Of a stretch of 56,849 nt of DNA, positions 501 through 5,964 are shown piece after piece. Position 1 is the stretch's first letter. The number at the start of each line of letters is the position of its first letter. The stretch spans positions 1 to 56,849 of IMG/VR virus record IMGVR_UViG_3300050821_016215, one strand, 5' to 3'. This DNA is from a virus. The position numbers and the translations under genes are program-made. The notes under the pieces are model-generated. The model did no database searches, had not been told where the DNA came from, and saw only the letters and a program-made list of their open reading frames with translations.

Positions 501-2597
501 TCAATCAAAAAGCCGTTCTTGCACTCTCAGACAATACGGACTAAACCAAATCCGCTCCCTTGAGGCATTCTCATACCCGCGATCCCCCCGCTGACTCCCG
601 TAGCCCCCATGGGCTCTCCAATAGAGGGTTTCCCAATCGTCGGGGAACTGATGCTCGCCCTCGTAGCCGCAAACCGCAATTCGAAGTAGCGGATTATTGC
701 CATTTTGGATCGCCCACTCCCGGACCGCTTTCGACAAATCGTTATCGTGGCTGCTGTAGAGGCCATCGGAGGGCGCGGCCCCATCGCGGCCACTTTCGGG
801 CCCGCTCACGACCCGCATATCGTAGGGTGGATCTAGGAAGACCCCGCAGACCCCGTGCTTGACCGTGACTGACGGCCCCAGGACTCGAGTCCAGTCCCCG
901 CAACAGACCCGGACTCTCCGGAGACGCTCGGAAAGCTGAAGCATGTAGTCCAGTAGGGCGGCACTCCGTTCATCGCTATTGATCCCCACGCCGGGACCGC
1001 GGCCTGAAAGCAGAGGACGTTTTTGACTGACCCCCTTGCCGTCGGAGCCGAGTTCCGGCCGCTTGAGCCAAACCCGTGCGCTCCCATCTTCGGCCAACGG
1101 TGGTTCCTGCCGGCGCTTGGGCCCCCGTGCACCGGGCGCTTTCCGGCTCGTTTGCAGCGCTTCCGTAAATATCCCCTGACCGGCCGCGCCTGAGTTACCC
1201 CGAAGGCTCGGGATCTGCCTCGATAGTTTTACTGAGGCGGTGCCGCGCCCCCCGTCTCCCAGGCTCGGGAGTTTGCGATGGACGCCTTCACCGGAATCGG
1301 CCAGGTGGGGAATCTGTTGCGGGGTTCCCTCGATCAAGCCGCTGCGGTGGATGCCACGGGCGGCCCGGCCCGCCTGAGTGCGGCCGGTCCACTCGGGTCT
1401 TGAGCACCACCCGGACCCGATCCACTGGCTGATCCCCCAGACCCACCACCCCGCAATCCGGGGGTCGAAGTACTCGGGATCCGTCTTCATCCGTTCCCGG
1501 AATTCCGTTTGGTTGACCAGCCACAGGTGTCGGGCGTGGAGGTCCGCTTCATTGACGGGCCAGTCCGCGTATTCCGTGAGGGTGTTGGGCGCGTAGGCCA
1601 AACTTCGCCAGAAATTGGCAAGGTAGCAGTTGTGGGAGGCCAGCCCCTCGGCGATGAACGTGTGGCAGTCCGTTTCGATCGCCACGACGTATTGTTCCCC
1701 CAAAAACTCTTTCGAGACCAGCCCCACGGCGCGGTGATCACGTCCATAAAGGCTCAGGCGTCCCAGGTTGTCGCCGAGTTTCTTGATCAACCGTGCTGGC
1801 CTGAACCGCATCAGGAGTGAAAGCACTACCGCCATAGGCCCTATCTGTATTGATCGACAACGGCGTGTTCCGTCAAGCTTGCCTCCAGAGGCGCATTGGA
1901 AACCACGATTGTTGAGCAGCATTAAAGCGAACTCCAGAATCTGGCCAGGGTTCTGCGAAAGAGTAATCCGTAGTCCGGGACCTGCATGCAGAGATCCTTC
2001 CCCATCAAGGATTCCACCAAGCCAGCCAGCCTCCCAGGTTTGCTCTCGTTCCACAACATCAGCTACTTTCAGAACCCAGGATCTTTGGGTAGCGCGATTG
2101 CACACCATGTTCGCGGTCTTTACCCAGCGCCAGCCTCGCCCGCCCGACTTGTGCGATCCACCCAACCACATATGATTCTCAGAGGCCACAACCGAAGTAC
2201 CGTCGTCAAACGTCAATCGATATGCCGGCTTCTTCAGTACGCGGACGCCCGTTACGTTGCCCTTAGCCAATCTTCTGTATCGCTTTGGGGCACGAAGCCC
2301 AGGACGGGCCTCCCCGTTAGTTTCATCAAAGGCCAGTAGCTCGTCGCCGGGCATAATCTCACCAGCACGCGACCAAGTCAGATCCGCTTTTAGAATCCTA
2401 GTGTCAGGCGCAACACAGTCCAGGTCGTTCACAGTTTCGGTCTGGGGGACCGTTGGGCGCCCGAGCAGCACCGCAAGTGATCCGGCGAAGGGCTCAACGT
2501 AGTTGTCGACTGCTCCGAAGCGGTCCCAGACCTCGGGGGCAATGCGGGATTTCCCTCCAAACCATGGAAAGGGGGCTTTGAGGATCGGGAAGCTCAT
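501..2597 (-). CDS. D12-class DNA adenine N6-methyltransferase interrupted by an intein
   Basis: The 698-aa precursor is a Dam-like (MethyltransfD12) enzyme, expected to methylate adenine in a short DNA site using S-adenosylmethionine. Visible motifs are FPWFGGK (residues 10-16), VEPFAGSLAVLL (34-45), ETVNDLD (54-60) and the catalytic DPPY (589-592). Residues 61-323 are an intein (separate entry); removing it restores NDLD-CYLANFWRSL, as in intact family members. Residues about 427-537 hold repeated LGxxGxGVxxKxP-type units of the variable target-recognition region, a pattern seen in other phage D12 enzymes. The start ATG directly follows a forward junction repeat and has no clear Shine-Dalgarno. 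It probably protects viral DNA from host restriction or regulates packaging or expression. Confidence 0.92.
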   Translation of the reverse strand: MSFPILKAPFPWFGGKSRIAPEVWDRFGAVDNYVEPFAGSLAVLLGRPTVPQTETVNDLDCVAPDTRILKADLTWSRAGEIMPGDELLAFDETNGEARPGLRAPKRYRRLAKGNVTGVRVLKKPAYRLTFDDGTSVVASENHMWLGGSHKSGGRGWRWVKTANMVCNRATQRSWVLKVADVVEREQTWEAGWLGGILDGEGSLHAGPGLRITLSQNPGQILEFALMLLNNRGFQCASGGKLDGTRRCRSIQIGPMAVVLSLLMRFRPARLIKKLGDNLGRLSLYGRDHRAVGLVSKEFLGEQYVVAIETDCHTFIAEGLASHNCYLANFWRSLAYAPNTLTEYADWPVNEADLHARHLWLVNQTEFRERMKTDPEYFDPRIAGWWVWGISQWIGSGWCSRPEWTGRTQAGRAARGIHRSGLIEGTPQQIPHLADSGEGVHRKLPSLGDGGRGTASVKLSRQIPSLRGNSGAAGQGIFTEALQTSRKAPGARGPKRRQEPPLAEDGSARVWLKRPELGSDGKGVSQKRPLLSGRGPGVGINSDERSAALLDYMLQLSERLRRVRVCCGDWTRVLGPSVTVKHGVCGVFLDPPYDMRVVSGPESGRDGAAPSDGLYSSHDNDLSKAVREWAIQNGNNPLLRIAVCGYEGEHQFPDDWETLYWRAHGGYGSQRGDRGYENASRERIWFSPYCLRVQERLFD
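1629..2417 (-). other. Intein with LAGLIDADG homing endonuclease domain (within methyltransferase)
   Basis: The 263-residue intein spans precursor residues 61-323. Splicing signals are complete by eye: Cys1 in block A (CVAPDTRILK), a block B SENH with the conserved His, a C-terminal block ending HTFIAEGLASHN, and Cys as first residue of the C-extein. GWLGGILDGEGSL is a LAGLIDADG endonuclease motif (about intein residues 131-143). Only one such motif is obvious, so the endonuclease may act as a dimer or be decayed. It sits in the conserved NDLD motif beside the active site, a typical intein site where imprecise loss would inactivate the host protein. Confidence 0.9.
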
Positions 2598-3065: not shown

Positions 3066-3506
3066 ATGGGAGCCTGGGGCCACCGAGCATTCGACAACGA
3101 TACCGGCGAAGACTGGCTGGACGGTTTCAGCGATGTCCTGAAGTTCATCCTGATGCAAGCCTACTGGAGCCACTTTCAGGAAGAGGGGATCGCGGCGGCG
3201 CGTCTCCTGATGGATCTACCCCAACTGCTTCAAGACCGACTTGGACCTCACCCGTTCGCTGAGGCGCTTGAATGCGTTGAGGCCGAGCTGAAGCCCCAAG
3301 CGATCAAACCGTGGAAGCACCCACAGAAGCGCCGCCGGTACCTTCGGGTTCTGAGGGGCGCATTGATTCAGGCCTACGAATTCCAAACCAAACTCGATCA
3401 GGCTCACCGGGACCGGATCTCTAAGCTGAAGGTCATCAGAGTCTCGGGGAACGACCCCAGGAAGCCGAAGCGCAAGCCCAAGCGTCGGGTCGCCAAACCA
3501 TCATGA
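3066..3506 (+). CDS. DUF4259-family protein
   Basis: The N-terminus MGAWGHRAFDNDTGEDW is the hallmark of DUF4259, a family of unknown function common in bacteria and seen in phages. The body is mostly helical and charged. The C-terminal stretch from VSGNDP to RVAKPS is encoded by a forward junction repeat and is very basic, so it is probably not part of the ancestral protein. The stop overlaps the recombinase start as ATGA, implying translational coupling. Confidence 0.75.
   Translation: MGAWGHRAFDNDTGEDWLDGFSDVLKFILMQAYWSHFQEEGIAAARLLMDLPQLLQDRLGPHPFAEALECVEAELKPQAIKPWKHPQKRRRYLRVLRGALIQAYEFQTKLDQAHRDRISKLKVIRVSGNDPRKPKRKPKRRVAKPS
3445..3496 (+). repeat. Junction repeat copy 3
   Basis: Forward copy, translated as the tail of the DUF4259 protein. 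It is followed by CCATCATGA, where the stop of one gene and start of the recombinase overlap. Confidence 0.85.
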
Positions 3507-4087
3507 AGCGAGCCGCCATCTATTGCCGCGTCTCCACCCAGGACCAAAACCCCGCCCTCCAGCTCGGGGAACTCCGGGAATTCGCCCACCGGCGCGGCTT
3601 CGAAATCTCACGCGAGTACATCGACCACGTGACCGGCGACACCCACCGACGCCACGCCCCCGAATACCAAGCCCTCATGCGGGACGCCGGCGCGCGCCAC
3701 TTCGATATTGTGCTGGTGTGGAAGTTCGATCGGTTCGCTCGATCGCTTGTGGCGCTGCTCGACGGCCTCCAGACCTTTTCGGCCCTCGGGATCGATTTCA
3801 TATCCGCCACCCAAGAGATCGACACCACCACCCCGGCGGGCCGATTGTTCTTTTCGATGGTGGGGGCGTTTGCCGAATTCGAGCGTAGCCTCATCCTGGA
3901 GCGAACCCGCGCCGGGATCGCGAACGCGCGCCGCAAAGGAGTCAAGTTCGGGAGACCCAGGAACCCGATCCAGGAGGCCAGGATCTTGGCCCTCCGGGCC
4001 CAGGGCCTGAGTTTCCGCGCGATCGCGCGTCAGGAGGGCAAGAGTCTCGCGGGGGTGGTGCTGTGTTGCAAGCGGGGCGCTCAATGA
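3503..4087 (+). CDS. Serine recombinase, resolvase/invertase type
   Basis: The 194-aa size is typical of small serine recombinases. YCRVSTQDQ carries the nucleophile Ser11, VWKFDRFARS the active-site Arg pair, and ERTRAGIANARRKG the start of the long E helix. A C-terminal helix-turn-helix (ILALRAQGLSFRAIARQEG) follows. Such enzymes resolve or invert DNA between short specific sites through a covalent Ser-DNA intermediate. It is too short to be a large phiC31-type integrase. Junction repeats lie immediately before it and 350 bp after it, raising the possibility that the repeats are its sites. Confidence 0.93.
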   Translation: MKRAAIYCRVSTQDQNPALQLGELREFAHRRGFEISREYIDHVTGDTHRRHAPEYQALMRDAGARHFDIVLVWKFDRFARSLVALLDGLQTFSALGIDFISATQEIDTTTPAGRLFFSMVGAFAEFERSLILERTRAGIANARRKGVKFGRPRNPIQEARILALRAQGLSFRAIARQEGKSLAGVVLCCKRGAQ

Positions 4088-5154: not shown

Positions 5155-5393
5155 GCAGCAACGAAGCCCTCTACCAGTTACTCATGATGGAAAGATTCGG
5201 AGGCCCCACCATGGCGGAATACGACCGTAAGCGGGCATATCGATCGAGGGAAATGCCGGAAGCCGATCTAGCGCTGGCCCAACAGGTCCTCGCAAATGAA
5301 GCCCACCGGCACGAGCACGCTATCCTGCGCGCCCAACTGCGAAAGCCCCCGCAACGCATCACGAGCCGTCGTGGTTGGCAAAAGCGCGCATGA
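5151..5393 (+). CDS. Hypothetical charged helical protein (80 aa)
   Basis: Not recognised. It starts MSSNEALYQLLM at the ATGA junction. The body is largely helical and charged (EADLALAQQVLANEAHRHEH) and the C-terminus is basic. It precedes the HNH nuclease gene by 10 bp. A longer frame to 5019 would only add repeat-encoded residues. Confidence 0.6.
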   Translation: MSSNEALYQLLMMERFGGPTMAEYDRKRAYRSREMPEADLALAQQVLANEAHRHEHAILRAQLRKPPQRITSRRGWQKRA

Positions 5394-5403
5394 TCACGTC
5401 CAA

Positions 5404-5964
5404 ATGAGCACCCGCCGCACTTCCCGAGAGGCCGGGTGGGTGAACCCTTCACGATTGCCCCGAGGCCCCAACGGGCGCGCCCTGTGCCGCCACTGCTCAA
5501 ACGAGGTCCCGGTGGGGCGCCGTACCTTTTGCGGCCCGGCCTGCGTGGACGCCTGGAGGATCAAAACAGACCCCGCCCACTTGCGCCGCATGGTCTGGGA
5601 GCGCGACCACGGGGTCTGTGCGCTCTGCGGGCTAGATACCTGTGCCGACATGCGGCAAAAGCGCTGTGGCGCGACGGGGGACCGCTGGCAGGCCGACCAC
5701 ATTGTGCCGGTCATTGAGGGCGGGGGGGAGTGCGGACTCGATAACCTCCGGACCCTCTGCACCGCCTGCCACAAGCGAGCTACCGCCGCGCTGGCGGCCC
5801 GGCGGGCCGATCAACGGGTTGCGGAGTTGCGCCAACTGGTCGACGGCCCACTGGAGTTCGGAAACCTGGTCCACATTGAGGCGAAGCGCAAACTACGGCG
5901 GGTTAAAACGAATGAAGAATCTCTGGTCCCACCAGCGCCGGGGGAACGACCCCCCATCGCCTGA
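5404..5964 (+). CDS. HNH endonuclease with N-terminal zinc finger
   Basis: The 186-aa protein has two zinc-type Cys clusters (CRHCSNE and CGPAC near residues 27-45; CALCGLDTC further on). The HNH core follows: ADHIVPVIEGGGECGLDNL then LCTACHKRAT, in which the His of DHI and the Asn of the DNL segment are catalytic and CTACHK supplies metal ligands. Phage HNH proteins act in DNA nicking, packaging or homing; which applies here cannot be told. The final residues (GERPPIA) come from a junction repeat. The next gene is convergent. Confidence 0.85.
   Translation: MSTRRTSREAGWVNPSRLPRGPNGRALCRHCSNEVPVGRRTFCGPACVDAWRIKTDPAHLRRMVWERDHGVCALCGLDTCADMRQKRCGATGDRWQADHIVPVIEGGGECGLDNLRTLCTACHKRATAALAARRADQRVAELRQLVDGPLEFGNLVHIEAKRKLRRVKTNEESLVPPAPGERPPIA

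Follow-up and report, generated by a model that had tools for sequence, protein, structure and literature searches.

Which element divides the D12/Dam-type adenine methyltransferase gene in the IMG/VR virus record IMGVR_UViG_3300050821_016215, and is it mobile? The analysed stretch, here called the window, comprises 56,849 bases. Positions 501-2597 on its minus strand, to which all gene coordinates below refer, form a single uninterrupted frame of 698 codons with matches to PF02086 and phrog_56. An earlier note had proposed an intein with a LAGLIDADG motif at 1629-2417, inside a phage D12 methyltransferase. Sequence, homologues, phylogeny and predicted folds agree with this proposal, and on these grounds the segment was confirmed as an intein in a D12/Dam-type methyltransferase gene.

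The host was assigned by its PF02086 match and by the motifs GGK, EPFxG, NDxD and DPPY, all of which were located. The N-extein (2418-2597, residues 1-60) carries FGGKS, EPFAG and NDLD, and these 60 residues alone yielded the phrog_56 match (1.2e-14). In the split precursor the PF02086 match ended at the junction (residues 12-59, 24.7 bits; cut-off 22 bits), whereas in the closest intein-free relative, L004, it passed through the insertion point (residues 9-79, 38.7 bits). The C-extein (501-1628) was delimited by alignment with intein-free homologues; it begins with CYLANFW, runs to the stop codon and contains the catalytic motif DPPY (822-833, precursor residues 589-592), invariant in a 46-row alignment. 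The AlphaFold model of L004 had a pLDDT of 70.8 overall, with most of the N-terminal 120 residues near 90, and the 17 PDB matches at E <= 0.001 were without exception chains of Dam, DpnM or Mcbe1. The predicted fold is thus that of E. coli Dam and DpnM; the phage enzymes differ from these by a Gly-rich repeat region before DPPY. This variable region lies between the N-terminal part and DPPY (957-1400 in the window), with units like GVHRKLPHLGDAGR, and was also present in L004 (residues 126-238), L008, L009, L010 and L080. It is predicted to be disordered in L004 and has roughly the position of the target-recognition part of Dam. Near the methyltransferase gene, on the plus strand of the window, are a serine recombinase/DNA invertase (3503-4087, phrog_125, 1.4e-50) and an HNH endonuclease (5296-5964, phrog_11604, 1.4e-18).

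The 789 bp of the segment correspond to 263 stop-free codons (precursor residues 61-323). The splice-junction residues named in the earlier note were all found: Cys1 as first splice nucleophile (2415-2417), block B with S79-E-N-H82 (2172-2183), His262-Asn263 at the end, and Cys+1 as first C-extein residue and second nucleophile (1626-1628), a native Cys in the intein-free L004. The end residues, block B, the seamless empty sites and the predicted HINT fold place the segment in class 1; with Cys1 present, the class 3 pattern of a Trp-Cys-Thr triplet without a nucleophile at position 1 does not apply. According to AlphaFold, the HINT splicing domain is formed by an N-terminal part (intein residues 1-127, 2037-2417) and a C-terminal part (residues 221-263, 1629-1757). 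Between them is one LAGLIDADG homing-endonuclease unit (residues 128-220, 1758-2036), recognised by its alpha-beta-beta-alpha-beta-beta-alpha order and by profile matches to I-MsoI and PI-PfuI. Its motif GWLGGILDGEG (residues 131-141, 1995-2027) and the complete predicted fold unit are present once only, in contrast to the two-motif layout of most inteins.

Further comparisons gave the same assignment. The NCBIfam model for Rv2578c, a protein that contains an intein, aligned to intein residues 1-263 (1.9e-14), and mycobacteriophage terminase inteins matched across all 263 residues (6e-27). The AlphaFold model, computed with seven sequences, showed a HINT fold (pLDDT 87.9, pTM 0.86), with PI-SceI and the PhoVMA, TliVMA, DnaB and GyrA inteins as top PDB matches. 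None of the intein-specific Pfam models reported the window intein in a Pfam search of the precursor, which was counted against the assignment and means that routine annotation would miss it; PF14528 matched the intein-bearing relatives L085 and L002 just below its cut-off. Two apparent hints at known carriers were rejected. A phrog_13242 match across the junction (residues 14-74) suggested a known intein-bearing family, but the model scores with the N-extein alone, misses the intein alone and matches the intein-free L004, and the extension is therefore due to chance. Methylase matches of HCTV-2 and Pseudomonas phage Lodos extended past residue 60, but the annotated genes, with 271 and 267 codons, cannot hold this intein.

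Removal of the intein restores the junction NDLD|CYLANFWRS as present in L004, and the rejoined stretch, NDLDCYLANFWRS, equals that of L004 letter for letter; the earlier note had already stated that removal restores the NDLD-CYLANFW core. Its placement of the site held in one respect, for the motif is conserved, and was refined in another: the insertion is in the SAM-pocket motif NDxD near the N-terminus, not at the catalytic DPPY. In the L004 model the insertion point lies between the strand 49-53 and the helix 58-68, directly behind Asp54 of NDxD, which is invariant in the 46-row alignment. In class-I methyltransferases the acidic residue of this motif contacts the SAM ribose. With an insertion at this pocket residue, the unspliced enzyme should be inactive.

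These observations bear on the view that the HINT/LAGLIDADG segment is an ordinary domain insertion, which the mature methyltransferase would retain for accessory or regulatory functions. The open frame throughout would suit such a domain, and splicing is so far predicted; however, a lasting insert of 263 residues inside the SAM pocket should abolish activity, the splice residues are conserved in five of five methyltransferase copies, and the inserts are distributed patchily, the empty sites being seamless. A search of the homologues for an ordinary domain at this position found none: about 64 were seamless and five had inteins that appear competent for splicing. We consider a retained domain very improbable. 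The methyltransferase relatives with an uninterrupted motif (64-65 in viral contigs) were drawn with an intein-bearing query, thus the ratio of 5 to 64 is not a frequency of occupation.

Almost certainly, then, the segment represents a mobile intein of class 1, self-excising and equipped with a homing endonuclease, in a Dam-type methyltransferase. The 698-residue precursor would be translated with the NDLD motif of the SAM pocket parted from the remaining methyltransferase. The HINT domain would excise itself by an acyl shift at Cys1, transfer to Cys+1 and cyclisation of Asn263, leaving a continuous methyltransferase of 435 residues. The LAGLIDADG unit would act as a homing endonuclease that cleaves alleles of this gene from which the intein is absent, and the intein would be copied in during repair. 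One-motif LAGLIDADG enzymes such as I-CreI and I-MsoI work as homodimers; having one motif only, the endonuclease of the window intein is probably a homodimer as well. Splicing, DNA cleavage and dimerisation are what we infer from these features. The residue preceding the intein is Asp, which was counted against this explanation; in some inteins an Asp at this place can favour N-terminal cleavage over splicing.

By sequence, the window intein is a member of a large family of compact phage inteins that each have a single LAGLIDADG motif. A scan with a profile of seven inteins, with patterns that covered both intein ends, gave 79 loci and 74 non-redundant sequences of about 245-285 residues, all 74 of which aligned at the position of the one motif in the window intein. 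Cys1, His82 and Asn263 were invariant, and position 79 was Ser or Thr in all. The end residues were partly preselected by the scan patterns; His82 and the DGEG of the endonuclease were not. Of the 74 relatives, 71 have D138 and 72 have E140. Host proteins of the family included terminases, portal proteins, a family A DNA polymerase, and UvrD-like and DEAD-type helicases.

Some members were accompanied by further elements. The helicase frame of L089 (2749-6327) has, besides the compact intein, an apparent second intein-like segment from about CLSWDTQIL to VGN|S with two LAGLIDADG-like motifs. In the portal frame of L088 (1993-6015), a second HINT-like segment, CVIEGTVVEATAV...GILSHN|C, is situated downstream of the compact intein in a head-protein-like region. 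A single intein allele of 251 residues at the site GEDSDEF(Q)xSYN|CKWLLERGM was common to many short viral contigs (L118, L120, L124, L125, L127, L132, L135, L140, L142-L145, L147, L148, L153, L159, L160, L162-L168) and appears to be very widespread; in L124 the N-extein matched the ATPase domain of terminases.

The intein has moved horizontally between methyltransferase lineages. The inteins of the window and of the viral contig L001 are sisters (100/99), but their methyltransferases fell into different supported groups among intein-free genes. Forcing the two methyltransferases together cost 105 log-likelihood units (AU p 0.00012), a test on a pair that was picked after the tree had been seen. 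Between the two intein DNAs the differences at codon positions 1, 2 and 3 were 0.29, 0.20 and 0.68, indicating selection on the intein protein; a dN/dS ratio is not given as dS was saturated. Identity was 77% in the splicing part and 48% in the endonuclease part. This faster divergence would fit an intein that splices, has a dead endonuclease and persists by vertical descent only, and nuclease activity may have been lost in one copy. As a general explanation a dead endonuclease is unlikely, given the intact DGEG, the near-invariance of D138 and E140 in the 74 relatives, and the conflict between the trees of intein and methyltransferase.

In total, five D12 methyltransferase inteins were obtained, that of the window and four more in viral contigs (L001, L002, L003, L085), all with the splice residues kept. 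They occupy two sites. Site a (NDxD|C) holds the inteins of the window and L001. Site b (NDxDxxx|C), occupied in L002, L003 and L085, follows exactly 3 residues (9 bp) further downstream; the length of the host motif is the same at both. In a tree that includes related inteins from other genes, the five group together as a single clade (99/97). The window intein and the L085 intein, each used as the sole query, revealed no further copies, and a search of genome contigs gave one distant, different intein.

Among the 65 intein-free homologues, the site-a residue was Cys in 28, and the site-b residue was Ala in 45, Ser in 12 and Cys in 5. The site-b inteins occupy a region of the methyltransferase tree in which site a is mostly Gly or Ala, and there the Cys at site b is supplied by the host genes of L002, L003 and L085. 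Judging from this distribution of Cys, every intein is inserted at a position for which the host gene provides the nucleophile. The five intein-free genes with Cys at site b (L033, L054, L067, L068, L078) may represent unoccupied natural targets, or else scars left behind by inteins since lost.

Our tentative explanation, given slightly less than an even chance, is that the intein relocated by three codons, in either direction, inside its own homing target and landed at whichever position had a Cys in the host allele (NDxD|C or NDxDxxx|C). Its one-LAGLIDADG, presumably dimeric endonuclease would still recognise the conserved flanks NDxD...NFWR. The 9-bp difference would then reflect relocation within the gene. 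Alternatively, sites a and b were invaded independently from other genes. For such invasions speaks that the site-a inteins form a branch of their own (100/99), that only five copies are known and that the data fit more than one branching order among them; a test for a single site-b clade gave AU p values of 0.18 and 0.36. The common clade of all five, however, and an identity of 51-57% across the sites compared with at most 42% to inteins in other genes, argue against separate origins, which we regard as the less probable course. The target was also searched for palindromes, with no convincing result: the best-scoring centres lay elsewhere than at the insertion points, while the site-a junction scored 0.38 against a mean of 0.25 (SD 0.08).

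Inteins of this kind are known from other phage proteins. The terminase-like and portal inteins of cluster C1 Mycobacterium phages (Pham3880-g, PORT, PMC5050341; for example DirtMonster, ET08 and Pio) and the portal inteins of Gordonia phage Newt have the layout of the window intein, with about 254-275 residues, Cys1 and one LAGLIDADG unit of the GxxDGEG type; the DirtMonster gene was read as Pham3880 type from the C1 terminase entry. Full-length similarity to the window intein was 33% for the terminase, 29% for the Gordonia portal and 25% for the Pio portal intein in an alignment. They differ in host protein and insertion site, and several have Ser or Thr at +1; Pio and Nappy inteins are without the penultimate His, unlike the window intein. 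The intein part of the Rv2578c-family radical SAM protein (NCBIfam NF038136) aligns with window intein residues 1-263, with scores of 53-58 bits against a cut-off of 700 bits since the host protein is unrelated.

The earlier note was not aware of many inteins in Dam-type methyltransferases. This requires a distinction: inteins in phage DNA methylases have been published, as DNMT-1/2 in mycobacteriophages (PMC5050341) and as the Dorothy_75 family (PMC9957025), but the DNMT-1/2 hosts are labelled N6_N4_Mtase (PMC5050341) and are set apart by this label from the D12/Dam host (PF02086) of the window. A tblastn of phage records with the window intein had no methylase among the matches listed. In the open-access literature we could find no earlier report of an intein in Dam/D12 enzymes, so the host family is new in this sense while the kind of intein is known. 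The same literature held no precedent for related inteins a few codons apart. The nearest case of adjacent sites found there is the pair a and b of vacuolar ATPase inteins (PMC2814812), where a conserved motif region likewise has two insertion sites close to each other; those are 20 residues apart, in yeasts versus archaea, whereas here three residues separate the members of one intein clade.

With this locus, D12/Dam methyltransferases join the phage proteins invaded by inteins. As the insertion is at the SAM pocket, methyltransferase activity would be expected only after excision. With its compact layout and one motif, the intein could serve as a useful small splicing and nuclease module. 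Of greatest interest is the double site: insertion points that lie 9 bp from one another are a natural test of how an intein may change its insertion point and of the role of the required Cys.
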